Shown: piece by piece, positions 49,657 to 60,192 of the stretch
Layout of the letters: each line of letters opens with the position of its first letter
How positions within the stretch are numbered: the stretch's first letter is position 1
Source: Bacteroidota bacterium
GTDB taxonomy: Bacteria; Bacteroidota; Bacteroidia; 2-12-FULL-35-15
Direction of reading: 5' to 3'
Length of the DNA stretch: 64,000 bases
Assembly: GCA_025963725.1 (NCBI GenBank)
Contig: JAOQAE010000006.1
Location: forward strand, 682,001 to 746,000
Translations under genes and position numbers: made by a program
The notes under the pieces: generated by a model
Told to the model about the DNA's origin: nothing
Seen by the model: only the letters and a program-made list of their open reading frames with translations
Databases searched by the model: none

Positions 49657-51057
49657 TTACTGCTTGATCAGCTTTTTAACGATGAGTTCTTTTGCACTTT
49701 TAACCTGCACAAAATAAACACCGCCGCTTAAGTCCTCAATATTGATCGCTGTTTTGGCTGACTGGATCTTCTGGCTGTAAACCAGTTGTCCGTTTATAGT
49801 GAAGATCTCTACTGTAGCGTCCTGCGCTGAGCTTTCAATAAAAAACTGTTCATTCGCCGGGTTCGGATACAAACTGAGCTCAGTTGCCGAAGCAGTGCTC
49901 TCCCCGATCCCAACCGTTGCAATCGCACAAATGCCATTGATCTGTACAGGAGTTGATTTGTTGACCATTGTTCCGTCTCCTAAACCGAATCCGTCTCCCG
50001 TGCCCCATACCGTGCCATCGCTTTTCAGGAACAAACAATGGGCATAGCCTGATGAGATCTCGGTAATTCCGCTTAGCGTGCTTACCTGCACAGGTGTGTG
50101 CCTGTCTGTTGTTGTGCCGTCACCCAGCTGCCCCGAACCGTTCAGGCCGCAGGACCAAACAGTGCCATCACTTTTCAGGAAGATCGAATGGTTGTCCCCG
50201 GCCGACATCGCTGTTACCGAGCTCAATCCACTGATCTGGAATGGTGTAGGTGTGTTGACGGTAGTGCCGTCACCCAGGTCGCCATAATTATTTCCGCCGC
50301 AGGCCCATACCGTACCGTCATTCTTCAGGAACAGCGAGTGGTATCCTCCGCCAATGATCGCAGTGATCCCGCTCACCACGGTTACAGGTGAAGGTGTTGA
50401 ATTCGCTGAGAAGCTGCCGCTGGTGCCATTGCCCAATTGTCCGTGAAAGTTATATCCGCAGGACAGCACTGTGCCGTCATTCTTCAGGAACAAAGAATGA
50501 TTTCCGCCCGAAGCAATTGCAGTAATCCCGCTGAGTGAAGGGATCTGGAACGGTGTTCCTTTATCCACAGTGGTTCCATCGCCTAACTGGCCGTAGTAAT
50601 TATTCCCGCATGCCCATACGGTACCGTCGTTTTTCAGGAAAAGCGAAGAGCCCTGTCCCGCCGCAACAGCTACGATGCCGCTTAAAGCAGTGATCTGAAC
50701 CGGAACGATGACCGGCGATGTGCTTCCGGTAGTTCCCTGGCCCAGTTGTCCCTGGTAGTTATTTCCGCAAGCCCATACGGTACCATCCGTTTTCAGGAAC
50801 AGCGTATATCCGAAGCCTACACCGATGGTAGCGATTCCGCTCATGGTACCTGCCGGCACTGCGGTGAGGCGGTCCACAGTTGTACCGTCACCCAGGTTCC
50901 CGTTGTTGTTGGCCCCGCAACCCATAGCTGTGTGGTCACTGCATAAGAACATGGAAGAGCTTACAGCCGCTATAATTGACTGTGCATTTGCACTATTATT
51001 CACAACCAGCAATGCCAGCAATAGAAGTACCCTATATTCCCGAAGTTTATGTTTCAT
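49657..51057 (-). CDS. Secreted RCC1-repeat protein with T9SS type A sorting domain
   Basis: 466 residues with a signal peptide (MKHKLREYRVLLLLALLVVN, cleaved after NAQ). Residues about 30-385 contain seven RCC1-type repeats of about 50 residues (LFLKTDGTVWACGNNYQGQL, LGDGTTVDKGTPFQI and similar), which close into a seven-bladed beta-propeller. The last 75 residues (LSLYPNPANEQFFIES to VKSAKELIVKKLIKQ) are a T9SS sorting domain. A binding role at the surface is likely; no enzymatic residues are seen. Confidence 0.92.
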   Translation of the reverse strand: MKHKLREYRVLLLLALLVVNNSANAQSIIAAVSSSMFLCSDHTAMGCGANNNGNLGDGTTVDRLTAVPAGTMSGIATIGVGFGYTLFLKTDGTVWACGNNYQGQLGQGTTGSTSPVIVPVQITALSGIVAVAAGQGSSLFLKNDGTVWACGNNYYGQLGDGTTVDKGTPFQIPSLSGITAIASGGNHSLFLKNDGTVLSCGYNFHGQLGNGTSGSFSANSTPSPVTVVSGITAIIGGGYHSLFLKNDGTVWACGGNNYGDLGDGTTVNTPTPFQISGLSSVTAMSAGDNHSIFLKSDGTVWSCGLNGSGQLGDGTTTDRHTPVQVSTLSGITEISSGYAHCLFLKSDGTVWGTGDGFGLGDGTMVNKSTPVQINGICAIATVGIGESTASATELSLYPNPANEQFFIESSAQDATVEIFTINGQLVYSQKIQSAKTAINIEDLSGGVYFVQVKSAKELIVKKLIKQ

Positions 51058-53018: not shown

Positions 53019-54524
53019 TTACGCTTTACGGACCCTTATAAATTCACCTCCCATGATGCGGTAGGTGTTTTGCCCTATCCGGATCTCCTGCCCTTCCGAC
53101 ATGGCCGCAAGCCGCGTGATATCTTCTTCCATGGTGTGAATACTGCCTTTGGTCTTCCGCGCGATGTTGAGGTAATCCGCCATTATTTCATCATTCACCC
53201 CGCATAAGATAATGTGCACCGGAACATTGAAATCCTTCAGCAGCACAATGTCCTTCACCGGCGCATTGTTATCCGCGATCATCACCAGCTCCTTATACGG
53301 CTTTGCAAGCTTCTGCCCTTTGATCAGCGCTTCCATATTGTTTTCGGGGCAGTCGCCGCCACCTCCATTCGCCGACACTTTTGCAATGGTGTTGAACAGC
53401 GAATCAACTCCCTTTGAAGCCGCATAATAAATTCCGCCGGTGCTGCCGGTCTTTTTCAGCTCATCCCGCATATTATCGCCATCGTTAAAGAACACAAACT
53501 GCAGGTTCTTTTCATTGAGCCAGGAAAGCTGGTACCAGGCAGCGAGCTGCGCTGCGTAAGGCGACATGCTTCCCGTAAGGTCGCATACGATCAGCTTCTC
53601 CGGCCACCTGTTCCTGTTCAGCACCGCTGAAACTACCGTATCCGGCGCTGTGCTCATATTCCTCACCCACTCCTTCACCTCGCGCTTCCGGCCTTCCTCC
53701 ACGGAGATCCCCAGCTTTTTGCACTTCTTTGCAAATTCGGCTTCTTCCTCCTTCAGCCGTTTCTCTTCTGCTGCAATGCGCTCCGCCTCTATCTTTTTCC
53801 TTCGCTCTATCTCTTTGGTGCCGAGGTATGCAAAGGTCATTTCTCCTTGTGATGTGCCTTTGGAGTATTCGAATTCTTTGGAAATATAATTCTTGTTGTA
53901 TTTAAAGCTGATGTAATAGTTATCGCCTTTCGGCAGATATACCACCAGGTGCCCATTCATGCCGGTGGTGCCCTTTACCTTTTTATGCCGCTTTTCGCCC
54001 GTTATGCTGAGCGCTTCGTTTTCGAGCGGCTTGCCGTCAATATCCATGATGATGATCTCCACACGGGCATAATACTCCATTATTTTCGGCCTTGTCATCC
54101 CGTAGCCCGCCTCTGTAGTATCGGGCAGCGTTTTTACGAATTCATCAACAGCTGCTTTTTCCGTGGCCGACATTTCAAACAGCTTGTCTTTTGCGGCCAT
54201 ATCGGGCTCGTAGGTTAACGTCTGTGAAATGCTGCATCCTCCGCCCGATCCCGACATGATCTCTTTTTTGCGCGTATAGTTCGTAATGGTGATGGTGAAT
54301 ACCTGTTCGCAGGGAACTGATAATGTTGCGATGCCATCGGCGTTACTTTTCTGGCTGAATGACCTCCCATCCGACTTAGCGGTAAGGGTTACAGATTGGC
54401 CAGCGTACACCCCGCCGCGAATGTTCTTCAGCTGGATGGTGATGGAAGAAAGGCATTCCTGCCCAAGCAGGAATTGTGGTAACATAAAAAGAATTGCTGC
54501 GAAGACGTGATGAGAACGGATCAT
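53019..54524 (-). CDS. Exported vWA-domain protein with carboxypeptidase-regulatory-like domains
   Basis: 501 residues from the ATG at 54524, which is preceded by a strong Shine-Dalgarno (AAAGGAGGT, 5 bases spacing). Signal peptide MIRSHHVFAAILFMLPQFLLG. Residues about 24-100 and 150-215 look like Ig/carboxypeptidase-regulatory modules (YAGQSVTLTAKSDGRSFSQK, VEIIIMDIDGKPLENEALS). A charged helix at about 235-285 follows, then a vWA domain with MIDAS-type DLTGSMS and GGGGDCPENN. The protein probably binds a partner through a metal ion in the periplasm or at the surface. It is divergent from the OmpA lipoprotein gene. Confidence 0.85.
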   Translation of the reverse strand: MIRSHHVFAAILFMLPQFLLGQECLSSITIQLKNIRGGVYAGQSVTLTAKSDGRSFSQKSNADGIATLSVPCEQVFTITITNYTRKKEIMSGSGGGCSISQTLTYEPDMAAKDKLFEMSATEKAAVDEFVKTLPDTTEAGYGMTRPKIMEYYARVEIIIMDIDGKPLENEALSITGEKRHKKVKGTTGMNGHLVVYLPKGDNYYISFKYNKNYISKEFEYSKGTSQGEMTFAYLGTKEIERRKKIEAERIAAEEKRLKEEEAEFAKKCKKLGISVEEGRKREVKEWVRNMSTAPDTVVSAVLNRNRWPEKLIVCDLTGSMSPYAAQLAAWYQLSWLNEKNLQFVFFNDGDNMRDELKKTGSTGGIYYAASKGVDSLFNTIAKVSANGGGGDCPENNMEALIKGQKLAKPYKELVMIADNNAPVKDIVLLKDFNVPVHIILCGVNDEIMADYLNIARKTKGSIHTMEEDITRLAAMSEGQEIRIGQNTYRIMGGEFIRVRKA

Positions 54525-54686: not shown

Positions 54687-55361
54687 ATGAAAAAGTGGAT
54701 GAACAGGCCGGTAATGGTAATTATCGCGTTGAGCTTATGTTTGGTGCCTACGGGCTGTAAATGGAAACGCACTGCGGCAGGCGGCGCAATAGGTGCAGGT
54801 GCAGGCGGTGTGATCGGAGGCGCGATCGGCTCGAGAAGCGACAATACCGTTGTGGGCGCTATCATTGGCGCAGCCATCGGCGGCGCAGCAGGGTCGGCGA
54901 TCGGGTTGTACATGGACAAACAGGCGCACGACATCCAGCGCGATGTGAAAGGCGCAAAGGTGGAGCGCGTGGGTGAAGGCATTCGCATCACCTTCGATTC
55001 GGGGATCATGTTCGATGTGAACTCCTACCAGCTGAAAGAAGAAGCAAAAACCAATATCAAAGAGCTGGCAAAGATCCTGCAGAAATACGATGACACCAAC
55101 GTGCTCATCGAAGGACATACCGATGCAAGCGGCTCCGACGAGCTGAACATGAAGCTTTCGGAACAGCGTGCTGATGCAGTGGCCGACTATGCAAAAATGC
55201 TTGGCGTTGCAGGGGCACGCATGGCGATCAAAGGATACGGTGAAACACAGCCGGTCGCCGATAATGACAGCGAAGCAGGGAAAGCGAAGAACCGCAGGGT
55301 GGAGATCGGCATCATGGCCAACAAGAAGCTGAAGAAAGCTGCCAAGCGAGGCGATATTTAA
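54687..55361 (+). CDS. OmpA-family lipoprotein with glycine zipper (YiaD-like)
   Basis: 224 residues. The lipobox PTGC follows a hydrophobic signal. Residues about 30-75 form a glycine-zipper region (GGAIGAGAGGVIGGAIGS and IIGAAIGGAAGSAIG). Residues about 100-215 are an OmpA domain: GIMFDVNSYQLKEEAKTN, EGHTDASGSDELN, LSEQRADAV and KNRRVEI, which binds peptidoglycan. It probably anchors the outer membrane to the cell wall. Same architecture and length as YiaD. A single gene with its own terminator. Confidence 0.93.
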   Translation: MKKWMNRPVMVIIALSLCLVPTGCKWKRTAAGGAIGAGAGGVIGGAIGSRSDNTVVGAIIGAAIGGAAGSAIGLYMDKQAHDIQRDVKGAKVERVGEGIRITFDSGIMFDVNSYQLKEEAKTNIKELAKILQKYDDTNVLIEGHTDASGSDELNMKLSEQRADAVADYAKMLGVAGARMAIKGYGETQPVADNDSEAGKAKNRRVEIGIMANKKLKKAAKRGDI

Positions 55362-55577: not shown

Positions 55578-56153
55578 TCATTTCGAAAGCCGGTATTTGC
55601 TTCCTGCATAATTCCCGCATGCATCTTTCAATGCCGGGTTGCTTGCCTGGATGCTGTAGTAGCGCGCCGAAAAATCCTGCAGGCTGTTATCCGAGCCGGC
55701 GTATACCGAGAAATAACGCATGAGGCTCCGGTCCGAATCCTTTATCTGGTAATAGCGCTTAATGAATTCCTCCATCGTTTTAGTAGACGCTGCATAGGCT
55801 CCGTAAGCGCCGGTCATTTTCGGATACGCATCGTGGATGGCGTAAAAACGGGCCATGAACTCCTCCATCGTATAATTAGAGCCCGCATAATTTCCCCACA
55901 CCGCAGTCATTTGCGGATATGAAGCTTTGATCTCATTGTAGCGCTCGATGAATCTTGTAAGCGCATGGGGAGATGCCGCATAAAGGCCCCAAAGATCTTT
56001 CATCTTCGGGTAGGTCTCCTTCATTTCATAATACCTGTCGAGAAAAACAAGGTCGCCGGAAGGCTGTGCCTGTGGCGCTTCCTGTGCCTGCAGCACAAGC
56101 GGCTGCATACAGGTGCAAAAGGCCAGCAGTACGATTGAATACAGTTTTTTCAT
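55578..56153 (-). CDS. Secreted protein of five 31-residue repeats (paralogue 2)
   Basis: 191 residues from the ATG at 56153, which starts a normal signal peptide (MKKLYSIVLLAFCTCMQPLV). After a short Gln/Pro/Ala linker come five repeats of about 31 residues following F..RYY.IK.SYP.M...YG.YAAS..(T)MEE; examples are FIERYNEIKASYPQM and FMARFYAIHDAYPKM. The end is YAGSKYRLSK, nearly the same as in the adjacent paralogue. Each repeat reads as two short amphipathic helices, suggesting a helical solenoid. No known repeat family comes to mind. It follows its paralogue in the same direction. Confidence 0.8.
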   Translation of the reverse strand: MKKLYSIVLLAFCTCMQPLVLQAQEAPQAQPSGDLVFLDRYYEMKETYPKMKDLWGLYAASPHALTRFIERYNEIKASYPQMTAVWGNYAGSNYTMEEFMARFYAIHDAYPKMTGAYGAYAASTKTMEEFIKRYYQIKDSDRSLMRYFSVYAGSDNSLQDFSARYYSIQASNPALKDACGNYAGSKYRLSK

Positions 56154-56171
56154 AGCTTTTAGTTCAAAGAA

Positions 56172-56202
56172 GAAAAGGCCTTCCACGTTGAAAGGCCTTT
56201 TC
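56172..56202 (-). terminator. Hairpin between the twin repeat-protein genes
   Basis: Stem GAAAAGGCCTT / AAGGCCTTTTC with a 9-base loop and a TTCTTT tail on the minus strand; it may reduce read-through from the first twin into the second. Confidence 0.55.
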
Positions 56203-56226
56203 CTGCTCATTTTTCAAATGAATATC

Positions 56227-56889
56227 TTATTTTGATAATTTGCATTTTGCTCCTGCATAGTCGCCGTAACCATCTTTCAGGTCAGTGCTGCTTGCTTTGA
56301 TGCCATGGTAACGTTTCTGGAACTCTTCAAGGCTGTAGCTGGAAGCAGCGTACTGTCCGTAGTAATCAGACATGGTAGCATCCGAATCTTTGATCTGGTT
56401 GTAACGTTTTACAAATTCTTCCAGCTTCATGTTGGAAGCAGCATAATCGCCATACACTTTTTTCATGTCAGGATATGTATCCTTGATCGAGTAATAGCGC
56501 TTTGTGAATTCGTCGAGTGTAACAGAAGATCCTGCATAGTTAGCAAACACGCCATCCAGCTTCGGATACGAATCTTTGATCTGGTTGTAGCGCTCTACGA
56601 ATTTTTCCATGCTCTGGTTAGAAGCAGCATATTTCCCGTAGCAGTCTTTCATGTCAGGATATGTTTCCTTGATCGCATAAAAGCGGTCCATGAAAAAAGA
56701 AGATGATTTTGCATCTGCTGTAGTTGCCGCAGTTGCTGTAGTTTTTGTTTCACCTTTTGTCGTTGCAGGCTTTGCCTCAGCTTTTGCGGCAGGCTTTGTA
56801 GTTTCTGCTTTCTTTGCAGTAGTCTGTGCGGTAACAACAGCCGAAGAACATACTAAAAGTGCGATTGGTAATAAGTTTAAACGTTTCAT
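56227..56889 (-). CDS. Secreted protein of five 31-residue repeats (paralogue 1)
   Basis: 220 residues. Signal peptide to about residue 22 (SSAVVTAQ), then a low-complexity Ala/Lys/Thr linker at 23-62, then five 31-residue repeats to the end. Repeat consensus: (E)EF..RY..IK.SYP.M...YG.YAAS. Examples are FVERYNQIKDSYPKL and FTKRYYSIKDTYPDM; the last repeat ends YAGAKCKLSK. No membrane span after the signal. It is followed 73 bases later by a paralogue with the same architecture, a clear tandem gene duplication. Function unknown. Confidence 0.8.
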   Translation of the reverse strand: MKRLNLLPIALLVCSSAVVTAQTTAKKAETTKPAAKAEAKPATTKGETKTTATAATTADAKSSSFFMDRFYAIKETYPDMKDCYGKYAASNQSMEKFVERYNQIKDSYPKLDGVFANYAGSSVTLDEFTKRYYSIKDTYPDMKKVYGDYAASNMKLEEFVKRYNQIKDSDATMSDYYGQYAASSYSLEEFQKRYHGIKASSTDLKDGYGDYAGAKCKLSK

Positions 56890-57094: not shown

Positions 57095-58579
57095 TTAGTT
57101 TTGCGCTACTAACGTACGCTCAGGAATATTTTTGTAATGATTGTACCTGTTGAGGATCTCACGCACATAGGCGGAGGTTTCCTGCCCTCGGCAGTAGCCG
57201 CATTTCACAACAGGGTCGTTATAGATGAGCGGGTTCGATTTCTGCAGGATCATGTAATCCACATTGTCGTACCACAGGCCGGGATCCTTGCCGTATTTTT
57301 CCGCAAGGTTGCGTGCATCCACCACATGGCCCAACCCTGCGTTGTACGAGGCAAGCACGAACTTGATCCGCTCCGCCTTGTTGGGAATATATTTTTTCCA
57401 ATAGCGGTCGAGGTCGGAAATATAGCTGGTGCCGGCAATTATGCTTTGCTCCGCCGTTGCATCTATGGTATCGAGGCCGTAATGCTTTGCCGTTTGCGGA
57501 ACCAGCTGCATAAGGCCGTTGGCTCCTGCCCATGAGCGGGCGGTAGGTGAAAAGTTGGATTCCTGCGAGATCAGCGCAGCCAGCAATTGCCAGTCCCAGC
57601 CGATCTTTGCGCTGTATGTTTTTATGAGGTCGTCGTATTCAGAGATCACACCGCCCGAATACGATACATATTTTCCAACGCCTCTCGGCCCGCCGGATTT
57701 TTTCTTCGCCTTAAAATATTTGGAATATACCGCAATGTTCTCTTTGGAGCTTTTACGCTTTTCGATCCAGTCGTTCATTACAGCCAGCAGCTGCGGGGAT
57801 TCCTTCCGGATCGCCCATGCGATCTTTTGCGGAAAGCTGATCGACGTTTCCACATCGATATTCGAATAATAGGTTTGATTGCTGAGCGCGATGTTCTCAT
57901 CGGCAATGGTATAATCAATTTCGCCGCTTGCTACTTTGCTGATGAGCTCTTCCGTTTCCTGATCGCCGGGAGCTTCAATGATATTTATCTTTTCACCGAT
58001 CTCTTCCGAAAGGCTTTGCAATCTTGAATAAAAGGAAGAACCTTTTCTTACGTGAATATTTTTTCCGCTGAGGTCGACCACATTCCGGATCAGGTTATTA
58101 TTCAGCTCTTCCTGTGTCATGTTCTCCCAGCCTTTCGGCTTGCGCTGGATCAGCACCTGCGGAACAAGCATCAGCGGCGAGCTGAAATCAACAAGGTTGA
58201 GGCGTTCTTTTGTTACGGTAAGGTTGGCGGCAACAATATCCACATCGCCATTGTTCAGCTGGCTGAATACAGTGTTCAGATCTTTTGCGATCACCAGCTG
58301 AAGCTCCACGCCGAGCTCTTTTGCAAATGCGTTCAGCAATTCATATTCATAACCCATTGAATCGCCTTTGTAAATATAAAAACTGGTGGAGCTGTTATCG
58401 GTAAGCGCAATAAGCTTTCCGCGCTTCTTAATTTCACCGAGATCGTGGATGGGGACGGGCACAAGGCTTTGCTGTGCAGCTGGCTTCCGGAAGGAGATCC
58501 CGTAAAACAAAATGCATGTTATCCCGGTGAGAAAAGCCAGGGAATATATAATTTTATTTCGGCTATATGCAAACGTCAT
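57095..58579 (-). CDS. mltF: MltF-type membrane-bound lytic murein transglycosylase
   Basis: 494 residues. An N-terminal hydrophobic segment (IIYSLAFLTGITCILFYGI) anchors or exports it. Residues about 45-285 are an extracellular solute-binding (SBP_bac_3) domain, with GYEYELLNAFAKELGVEL and DIVAANLTVTKER. Residues about 315-480 are an SLT domain with the catalytic glutamate in ALISQESNFSP and ANGLMQLVPQTAKHYG, SYNAGLGHV. The combination is MltF: it cleaves peptidoglycan, and the binding domain senses muropeptides. It has a strong Shine-Dalgarno, unlike most genes here. Confidence 0.94.
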   Translation of the reverse strand: MTFAYSRNKIIYSLAFLTGITCILFYGISFRKPAAQQSLVPVPIHDLGEIKKRGKLIALTDNSSTSFYIYKGDSMGYEYELLNAFAKELGVELQLVIAKDLNTVFSQLNNGDVDIVAANLTVTKERLNLVDFSSPLMLVPQVLIQRKPKGWENMTQEELNNNLIRNVVDLSGKNIHVRKGSSFYSRLQSLSEEIGEKINIIEAPGDQETEELISKVASGEIDYTIADENIALSNQTYYSNIDVETSISFPQKIAWAIRKESPQLLAVMNDWIEKRKSSKENIAVYSKYFKAKKKSGGPRGVGKYVSYSGGVISEYDDLIKTYSAKIGWDWQLLAALISQESNFSPTARSWAGANGLMQLVPQTAKHYGLDTIDATAEQSIIAGTSYISDLDRYWKKYIPNKAERIKFVLASYNAGLGHVVDARNLAEKYGKDPGLWYDNVDYMILQKSNPLIYNDPVVKCGYCRGQETSAYVREILNRYNHYKNIPERTLVAQN

Positions 58580-58675: not shown

Positions 58676-58972
58676 TCAAACGAACGCCTTCAATACGTCG
58701 ATGAGCATACCTTGCGGCAGTGCTCCCGACTGCTGCCATCTCACCGCACCTTTCTTAAAGATGATGAAAGTGGGCACCGAACGCACATTGTATTTAGCAG
58801 CCGCAGCGGGGTTCTTATCAATATCCACTTTAATGATGCGGACCTTATCCCCCATCTCCGCAGCTACATTCTTCAGCACCGGCGCCATTGTTTTGCAGGG
58901 GCCGCACCATTCGGCGAAAAAGTCGACAAGCACAGGCTGGTCGGAATTGATCAGTTCAGAAAATGTTGACAT
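58676..58972 (-). CDS. trxA: Thioredoxin
   Basis: 98 residues from the ATG at 58972; a longer frame would run through the previous gene. The active site WCGPC is at residues 22-26, and the cis-proline region is RSVPTFIIF. It reduces protein disulfides in the cytoplasm. It is slightly shorter than E. coli TrxA. The start overlaps the DinD-like gene by 17 bases, so the three genes cbpA, DinD-like and trxA are co-translated, hinting at a protein-repair or stress unit. Confidence 0.93.
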   Translation of the reverse strand: MSTFSELINSDQPVLVDFFAEWCGPCKTMAPVLKNVAAEMGDKVRIIKVDIDKNPAAAAKYNVRSVPTFIIFKKGAVRWQQSGALPQGMLIDVLKAFV

Positions 58973-59312
58973 CGTTGAAATTTTTAGTTGCAAAATGTAC
59001 CTGCATGCGTGCCACACGCTCATTTGCCGGATCGGCGTTGATCACGATCAGGTAGCAGGCCAGCGGTGAAAGCCTCCAGTCGGTAACGAGATGGTCGTCG
59101 CAGGTACGGAATACAGATTTGAAATTTTGTTTGATCGAAATGTTCAGGGAAGCGCAGGCCTTGAATGCGCGCTCTATGGCGATGTCAAGCTCCTCTTCCG
59201 GAACATTCAACCGTTCCGTCAGCTCACTTGCATAGCAGATGTATTTTATAGACGGCTCCTCCTCACGGAAAAGCATCACCGGGTTTGCCCATTCTTCAGA
59301 CTGTTTCCTCAT
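58956..59312 (-). CDS. Stand-alone DinD-core domain protein
   Basis: 118 residues. The segment [20 protein letters not shown], then [13 protein letters not shown], strongly resembles the DinD motif (LSRYACYLVVQNGDP...AAGQTYFAIQTR). The preceding part ([38 protein letters not shown]) aligns with the DinD N-terminal region. E. coli DinD has about 274 residues; the C-terminal half is missing here. DinD is DNA-damage inducible and inhibits RecA filaments. Overlaps of 17 bases with both cbpA and trxA make it the middle gene of an operon, in the place CbpM occupies in other bacteria. Homology is from pattern memory. Confidence 0.65.
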
Positions 59313-60192
59313 GATTCTTATTTTTTAATTGTTGAAATAATTCAATTTCCTCTGCCGAAAGATTTTTAGGCAGCAACGCTTTCATCTTCACATACAGGTC
59401 GCCAAACTCGTCCTTACCAAACACCGGCATCCCCATTCCTTTTAGCCGCAGCACTTTCCCGTTCTCGGTTTCTTTCGGGATGTCGATCTTGATCATTCCC
59501 TTCATCGTGTGGATCGTTGCTTTTCCGCCAAGGATCAAAGTATACACGTCCACAGGCGCTTCACAGTGAAGGTCATTTTCTTTCCGTTCAAAGTGCGGAT
59601 GTTCCGAAACATGCACCGTTACGTAAATATCGCCGCGCGCCCCTTTATTGCTTCCCGGCCCGCCCTTTCCGCGGATGCGCAGCGATTGGCCTTCCTTTAC
59701 TCCCGGCTTGAATTTCATCTGCAGCTTTTCGCCATCCACTTCAAGGAGCCGTGATGTGCCATTATAAGCTTCTTCCAGCGAGAGCTGAACCTCCGCTGAA
59801 TAATCGCTTCCCTTTTGTGCACCGCGTGATCCTCCTCCGAAGCTGCTACCGAACACCGATTCAAAAAAGTCGGAAAAGTCGCCTCCTTCAAAAGAGCCGC
59901 TTTCCGAATATTGCCTTTGGCGCTGCCGTTGTCCCCTGCCATTTTCCTGTTGCGCATTTCCCTGGTATTGCTGCCAGTTCTCGCCGAGCTCATCGTATTT
60001 TTTTCTTTTTTCAGGGTCGCCCAGCACTTCATGCGCCTCGCTGATCTCCTTGAACTTTTCCTCTGCCGCTTTATTTCCGGGATTTTTATCGGGATGATAT
60101 TTAACAGCAAGCTTCCGGAAGGCCTTTTTAATTTCCTCCTGGGTAGCTGCTTTTGTAAGCCCGAGTATTTTATAATAATCCTTATAATTCAT
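59296..60192 (-). CDS. cbpA: DnaJ-class co-chaperone (CbpA-like)
   Basis: 298 residues. The J domain at 1-70 contains the HPDK motif in KYHPDKNPG and [21 protein letters not shown] Gly/Gln/Ser-rich linker (about 75-130) leads to the two C-terminal substrate-binding domains ([51 protein letters not shown]). There is no zinc-finger domain, so it is CbpA/type II rather than DnaJ proper. It stimulates DnaK ATPase and delivers unfolded proteins. It heads the operon with the DinD-like and thioredoxin genes. Confidence 0.92.

Follow-up and report, generated by a model that had tools for sequence, protein, structure and literature searches.

Exported Bacteroidota proteins made of five 31-residue helical repeats, a new sequence family with a predicted ring structure

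Two neighbouring genes in the 64,000-nucleotide stretch of DNA analysed here (the window) raise the question of what kind of protein is built from a strictly spaced 31-residue repeat that resembles no familiar family, and what such a protein does outside the cytoplasm. The initial annotation of this DNA had described their products as a pair of exported proteins of five repeats each, and this description holds: both open reading frames are present and the repeats follow one another without insertions or deletions. The genes, referred to here as B and A, lie head to tail on the minus strand, with the following layout.

56227..56889, minus strand: coding sequence of gene B, 220 residues (signal peptide, linker and 5 x 31-residue repeats)
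56824..56889, minus strand: signal peptide of B, residues 1-22, assigned by eye, with cleavage near TAQ
56698..56823, minus strand: K/A/T-rich linker of B, residues 23-64, predicted to be disordered (pLDDT <50 at residues 10-63)
56695..56697, minus strand: residue 65 of B, N-terminal half of a predicted beta-bridge clasp
56230..56694, minus strand: repeat array of B, residues 66-220, 5 x 31, from sequence and model
56230..56241, minus strand: tail KLSK of B, residues 217-220, residue 217 contributing the C-terminal side of the predicted clasp
56170..56204, minus strand: hairpin in the intergenic region of B and A, with a T-rich stretch after it, from folding compared with shuffles
55578..56153, minus strand: coding sequence of gene A, 191 residues (signal peptide, short linker and 5 x 31-residue repeats)
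56082..56153, minus strand: signal peptide of A, about residues 1-24, assigned by eye, ending LQAQ
55581..56045, minus strand: repeat array of A, residues 37-191, 5 x 31, with a predicted bridge 36/188
55581..55592, minus strand: tail RLSK of A

The mechanically called reading frame of gene A is longer and starts at 56210; position 56153 was taken as the start because the signal peptide opens there and the longer frame overlaps the conserved hairpin between the genes. This hairpin has a z score of -3.90, none of 200 shuffles being equally stable, and similar structures occupy the same site in the relatives (about 3696-3725 in L003 and about 5663-5689 in L004), that is, in all three genomes that bear the twins. 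A pattern scan left 56170-56204 unflagged as a terminator; the hairpin may act as a leaky one, in which case B would be more abundant than A.

The repeat is regular in both proteins. Units opening with F-x-x-R-[YF] start at residues 66, 97, 128, 159 and 190 of B and at residues 37, 68, 99, 130 and 161 of A, each 31 apart. Among 40 units taken from eight homologues, F1 is invariant (40/40) and R4 nearly so (39/40, with one K); all 40 carry Y or F at position 22, A23 is likewise constant, and S25 is present in 37. Small residues are concentrated in the shorter of the two helices discussed below (G20 in 31/40, A23, and A or G at position 24 in 39/40), as expected for tightly packed helices, and positions 14, 17 and 21, which form one helix face, are mostly polar. 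Both genes are under purifying selection, as indicated by a low pN (0.10-0.20) against a near-saturated pS (0.69-0.85) in six orthologue pairs; dN/dS could be obtained for two of seven pairs only, synonymous sites being saturated.

The twins align repeat for repeat, as had been proposed: in the mean matrix of A against B each of the five rows peaks at the same-index repeat (0.48-0.57), the row of repeat 2 being nearly tied (0.49 compared with 0.48 and 0.46). The same-index repeat is also best in five of five rows when the proteins of two more distant genomes, G665 and G850, are compared with the twins. As same-index repeats match best, whole genes and not single repeats were duplicated. The KLSK/RLSK tail noticed at the outset is common to both window proteins and varies in further members (KLTK, KLSN, KLAK), the L004 copy of A ending in VLWRKK.

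The repeat was initially reported as unrecognised, and a match to a described family would have overturned that view; no profile search in the libraries covered placed it in one, the Pfam and NCBIfam matches of the two window proteins all lying below cut-off. Gene A reached 26.0 bits with SANT_DAMP1_like (PF16282; cut-off 29.1; best E over 16 family members 1.1e-5, which is also the best Pfam E over these members) and gene B 20.6 bits with DUF4298 (PF14131; cut-off 27.0; best E over 16 members 4.6e-4), and the best NCBIfam E over these members was 1.6e-4. PHROGs and PADLOC, for which no cut-off is given, returned weak matches only. Against PDB sequences a six-row profile found nothing below E 0.33 (the best being sialidases) and gene B alone found none. 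Phage records gave one match at E 10 and plasmids none, 0 of 116 candidate stretches of viral contigs were confirmed, and the best E of a fold search in BFVD was 0.82. Several apparent matches were set aside: those of gene B to Pfam Mucin and New_glue, and of the G850 protein to NCBIfam chryseobasin and HxsA2, fall on leader and linker and were read as composition, while SpiroCoCo, SbcC and Rad50 were far under their cut-offs where these were shown. Toxin, defence and RiPP roles were considered and found no support. The repeat is thus undescribed in the libraries searched and is best seen as defining a new repeat-protein family of the alpha-helical type, a clean sequence family below every Pfam and NCBIfam cut-off in the searches made.

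Sixteen intact proteins make up this family; they come from 13 genomes, which belong to three taxonomic families of one class, and their occurrence within each is patchy. All 16 members have five repeats, a count to be read with the reservation that profiles built from five-repeat proteins may favour five-repeat matches. In 14 of the 16 every unit has 31 residues; the L034 protein has one unit of 30 and the L039 protein two of 32. In the genus of the window, intact twins were found in 3 of 36 genomes (the genus, family and order sets all amount to 36), the other two, besides the genome of the window, carrying orthologues of both genes (L003 and L004). A degraded copy in the same genus (G001, seen as L007/L014/L042, contig 54), with a signal-peptide-like start and one to two repeats before a stop and loss of frame, was left out of the intact count.

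In a first draw across the class, 7 of 395 genomes matched at E <=0.01 (G000 and G016, both from the set of three twin-bearing genomes, the G001 remnant, G134, G414, G665 and G850), G134 matching by construction as its protein was in that profile. The new intact members from this draw were those of G665 (family f61) and G850 (family f90); in a local search of small size, gene B alone aligned to both with E no higher than 8.2e-56. Matches were then counted in 9 of 87 genomes of the order of G850 and in 1 of 6 of that of G665. A second class draw with a 16-row profile matched 7 of 394 genomes, of which G850, G665 and the G001 remnant were accepted. Across the phylum, 2 of 395 genomes matched with either profile: the genome of the window was joined by G134 with the first and by G329, through a TPR-like protein, with the 16-row one. 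Matches in G414, G329, G658, G027, G025 and G030 (E 4e-4 to 0.0065) were dropped before counting; the G329 protein looks like a TPR protein and that of G027, the only one read among G027, G025 and G030, like a peptidase.

In the tree of the family the A proteins form one group (100/99) and the B proteins another (89/68), and the members from f90 and f61 group together (86/98), with the exception of the long-branched L040; 2 of the 13 inner branches are well supported. Repeat matrix and tree together support the paralogy proposed for the pair, and place it in this genus only: in the two taxonomic families outside the genus the gene is single. These single-gene members retain a B-like linker, the length of which differs among the orthologues of B, and gene A may be a duplicate that lacks it.

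AlphaFold2 models of both twins, built from a shallow alignment of six sequences, are confident over the repeats. In the model of B, 130 of 220 residues have pLDDT >=90 and 60 are <50 (pTM 0.67); in that of A, the corresponding figures are 121 and 32 of 191 (pTM 0.75). Both models contain ten helices, two per repeat, the longer of 11-14 residues and the shorter of 6-12. DSSP marks only two strand or bridge residues in each, 65 and 217 in B and 36 and 188 in A, which can be taken as pairs since a bridge needs a partner and no other residues are marked. The residue just before repeat 1 thereby meets the KLSK/RLSK tail, which an open array of five units should not allow, so that the predicted chain closes into a ring. 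A role in this clasp would explain why the tail is common to the twins; the departure of the L004 copy of A from the KLSK-type tail counts against such a reading. In a study of repeat geometry, extended repeat proteins differ in the number of their units, whereas the shape of closed ones constrains them (PMC12308183); five repeats in each of the 16 members is what this would lead one to expect if the protein is closed.

The two models have the same five top PDB matches, all of them designed toroids (8c3w, 4yxx, 9h3c, 9gvf and 8s6p). Foldseek gave E 0.16-0.84, probability 0.63-0.96, TM 0.37-0.44 and rmsd 5.7-6.7 A, and VIA-align gave rmsd 4.2-4.8 A over 134-148 residues with Z 5.1-6.9, a range to be read with caution since Z below about 13 may reflect an arrangement common among helical repeats. 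Several of the alignments spread the five repeats of the model across nearly the whole of a six-repeat ring. The original paper on designed toroids is reportedly that of Doyle et al. in 2015. The entry 4yxx is titled a left-handed alpha/alpha toroid with 6 repeats, and the heme-binding design 8c3w was built on it (PMC10326885). Two features of a closed left-handed alpha/alpha toroid, two helices per repeat and contact between the first and the last repeat, are found in the models of A and B.

The designed toroids (4yxx, the heme protein 8c3w, and the Ru-cofactor and related entries 9gvf, 9h3c and 8s6p) share with the twins the two-helix repeat and the closed ring, here a predicted one, whereas they have six units and the natural, exported twins have five and a beta-bridge clasp. 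At 10-18% identity and with modest scores, the comparison would point to an architecture in common and not to ancestry. On handedness, a toy ring model with ideal untwisted helices and guessed radii, indicative only, gave 3.6-3.8 A and TM 0.55-0.63 (full-length normalisation) for a five-unit ring laid on a six-unit ring of the same hand, and about 13 A and TM 0.26-0.30 for the opposite hand. The rmsd observed argues for the left hand, and the observed TM of 0.37-0.44 lies between the same-hand and the opposite-hand values. Fold and closure are predicted and the hand is deduced from the fold matches; the twins probably form closed, left-handed rings of five units.

Below the toroids, 18 of the 20 matches listed for the model of A are TAL-effector chains (Z 2.2-3.4); for B the list continues with a mitoribosome chain (Z 3.1) and then a single TAL chain (Z 3.0). 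The repeat of TAL effectors is described as a left-handed bundle of two helices (PMC11514114). TAL repeats resemble the twins in the two-helix unit, with a left hand that the twins would share, and are the next best fold matches of gene A, but consist of 34-residue, near-identical DNA-binding units arranged in an open superhelix, whereas the twins have 31-residue units, are exported and are closed by prediction; the Pfam search with the two window proteins gave no TAL model.

TPR, Sel1 and HEAT proteins are also made of alpha-helical hairpin repeats of similar length, those of TPR type forming right-handed open solenoids, and this raises the alternative that the twins are an open alpha-solenoid, a divergent and shortened TPR-like or Sel1-like array that binds peptides in its groove, ring closure being an artefact of modelling. 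A two-helix unit of some 31-34 residues would suit such an array, the TPR-like protein of G329 reaches 21.8 bits with the 16-row family profile, and Pfam TPR_Slam is touched by one of the 16 members (E 0.006). Against it stand the constant five repeats, the end-to-end bridge in both models, the lack of any Pfam match of the window proteins to TPR, Sel1 or HEAT models up to E 10, and the absence, which is not proof, of TPR, Sel1 and HEAT chains from the fold matches listed for either model. On balance we consider the open solenoid unlikely.

A further protein bears on how far the putative ring proteins extend. Genome G134 encodes, at L011:1447-2055 on the minus strand, an exported-looking protein of five exact 34-residue units that has the YAxS-(6)-FxxR spacing of the family at all four inner junctions, but whose units are three residues longer and only 21-27% identical to those of the family. 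It matched the first profile at E 0.005 and was absent from the matches of the 16-row profile, with which it scores 22.4 bits locally against 21.8 for the TPR-like protein of G329. Compared with the unit profile of the twins it gave E 0.057, the best among itself and 2000 shuffles (next 0.33). No second copy was found in 201 genomes of its taxonomic family. It was not counted as a family member; judged by its sequence, it is a possible distant relative of the 5 x 34-residue type.

Gene neighbourhood offers another approach to function. The twins are flanked in the window by the following genes, taken as their context and not as parts of the system.

57095..58579, minus strand: upstream neighbour, MltF-like lytic transglycosylase (SBP_bac_3 + SLT; NCBIfam MltF 301.6 bits, below the cut-off of 354)
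54687..55361, plus strand: flanking gene on the gene A side, YiaD-family glycine-zipper/OmpA lipoprotein (230.4 bits, cut-off 175)

In each of the three genomes with twins, these lie between an MltF-like and a YiaD-type gene (YiaD in L003 and L004 by reading open reading frames), an arrangement that would favour a local envelope factor acting with the transglycosylase and the lipoprotein in peptidoglycan upkeep. An MltF homologue is, however, present in 10 of 36 genomes of the genus, 7 of these 10 without intact twins (twins occurring in only 3 of the 36), one twin-bearing genome has a further gene in between, and gene order shared within a single genus may reflect no more than common descent. 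Comparison of gene context in other taxonomic families, a check put forward with the initial annotation, yielded no conserved partner gene outside the genus: the single-gene members have other neighbours, namely DAO-Rieske, Glucodextran_N, GDE_C, endonuclease I, DsbA-like and UDG proteins (Pfam was run on 8 neighbour proteins of these families and the rest were judged by eye). Peptidoglycan upkeep together with these two neighbours is quite improbable in our estimate. In family f90 (L035, L037, L038, L039; L018, L033, L034) the repeat gene adjoins genes for a DAO-Rieske oxidoreductase and for a Glucodextran_N protein, or else one for GDE_C (a debranching enzyme), by Pfam in L037 and L033 only and by eye in the others.

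The location of the twins is suggested by their signal peptides, which are followed by neither a lipobox (by eye) nor a type IX sorting tail, and points to the periplasm. A catalytic function is unlikely, since no Cys or His is invariant in the 16-row alignment and no family match to an enzyme exceeded a cut-off. A third alternative is that of a surface or matrix protein whose sticky, tyrosine-rich repeats coat the cell or bind a surface: the aromatic fraction of the predicted ring is 0.16-0.18, B-type members carry a low-complexity linker, and occurrence is patchy (3/36, 1/6 and 9/87 genomes). This reading conflicts with the lack of the type IX sorting domain Por_Secre_tail among Pfam matches (none up to E 10 in the window proteins and none up to E 0.01 in the 16 members), with the missing lipobox and with the absence of the linker from gene A, and it is the one we find hardest to credit, being very improbable.

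The explanation that we prefer is that of a periplasmic, non-enzymatic five-repeat ring for binding or scaffolding, a natural counterpart of the designed six-repeat toroids, a proposal we regard as evenly poised between right and wrong. The product of each gene would be exported, most likely as a soluble periplasmic protein, in which each 31-residue repeat folds into a longer and a shorter helix and the hairpins stack with a left-handed turn until they close after five units, the ring being clasped by the small beta-bridge that joins the C-terminal tail to the residue preceding repeat 1. Such a ring could serve as a rigid scaffold with a binding site on its surface or in its polar centre, and the K/A/T-rich linker of B may tether it or keep it soluble. 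The structural or binding role that had been anticipated would fit the predicted ring.

To our knowledge, closed left-handed alpha-toroids have so far been known by design only, and no natural one was recognised in the literature searched, whose coverage leaves out most subscription journals. We advance a wider idea more tentatively, doubting it somewhat more than we trust it: nature would use the closed left-handed alpha-toroid, which designers made first, as an exported ring of five repeats held shut by a terminal beta-bridge, with the five-fold build and polar centre holding a ligand or an envelope protein, and the G134 branch would make it a superfamily. If a structure confirms the ring, design and evolution would have reached the same ring independently; if the idea is true, a natural exported template would be at hand for a fold, that of the 4yxx scaffold, that now holds heme and other cofactors.

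Other genes of the window deserve mention. At 53019-54524 (minus strand) a secreted-looking protein of 501 residues has sub-threshold matches to Big_1, MG4 and VWA_4, a possible combination of Ig/macroglobulin-like and von Willebrand A domains. The 466-residue protein at 49657-51057 (minus strand) shows, by eye, RCC1/BNR-type repeats (FLKNDGTVWACGNN...) and a type IX-like sorting tail. At 58956-60192 (minus strand), a DnaJ protein with its C-terminal domain is followed by a 118-residue protein that has no Pfam match, which we take, by eye, to be a CbpA/CbpM-like pair.
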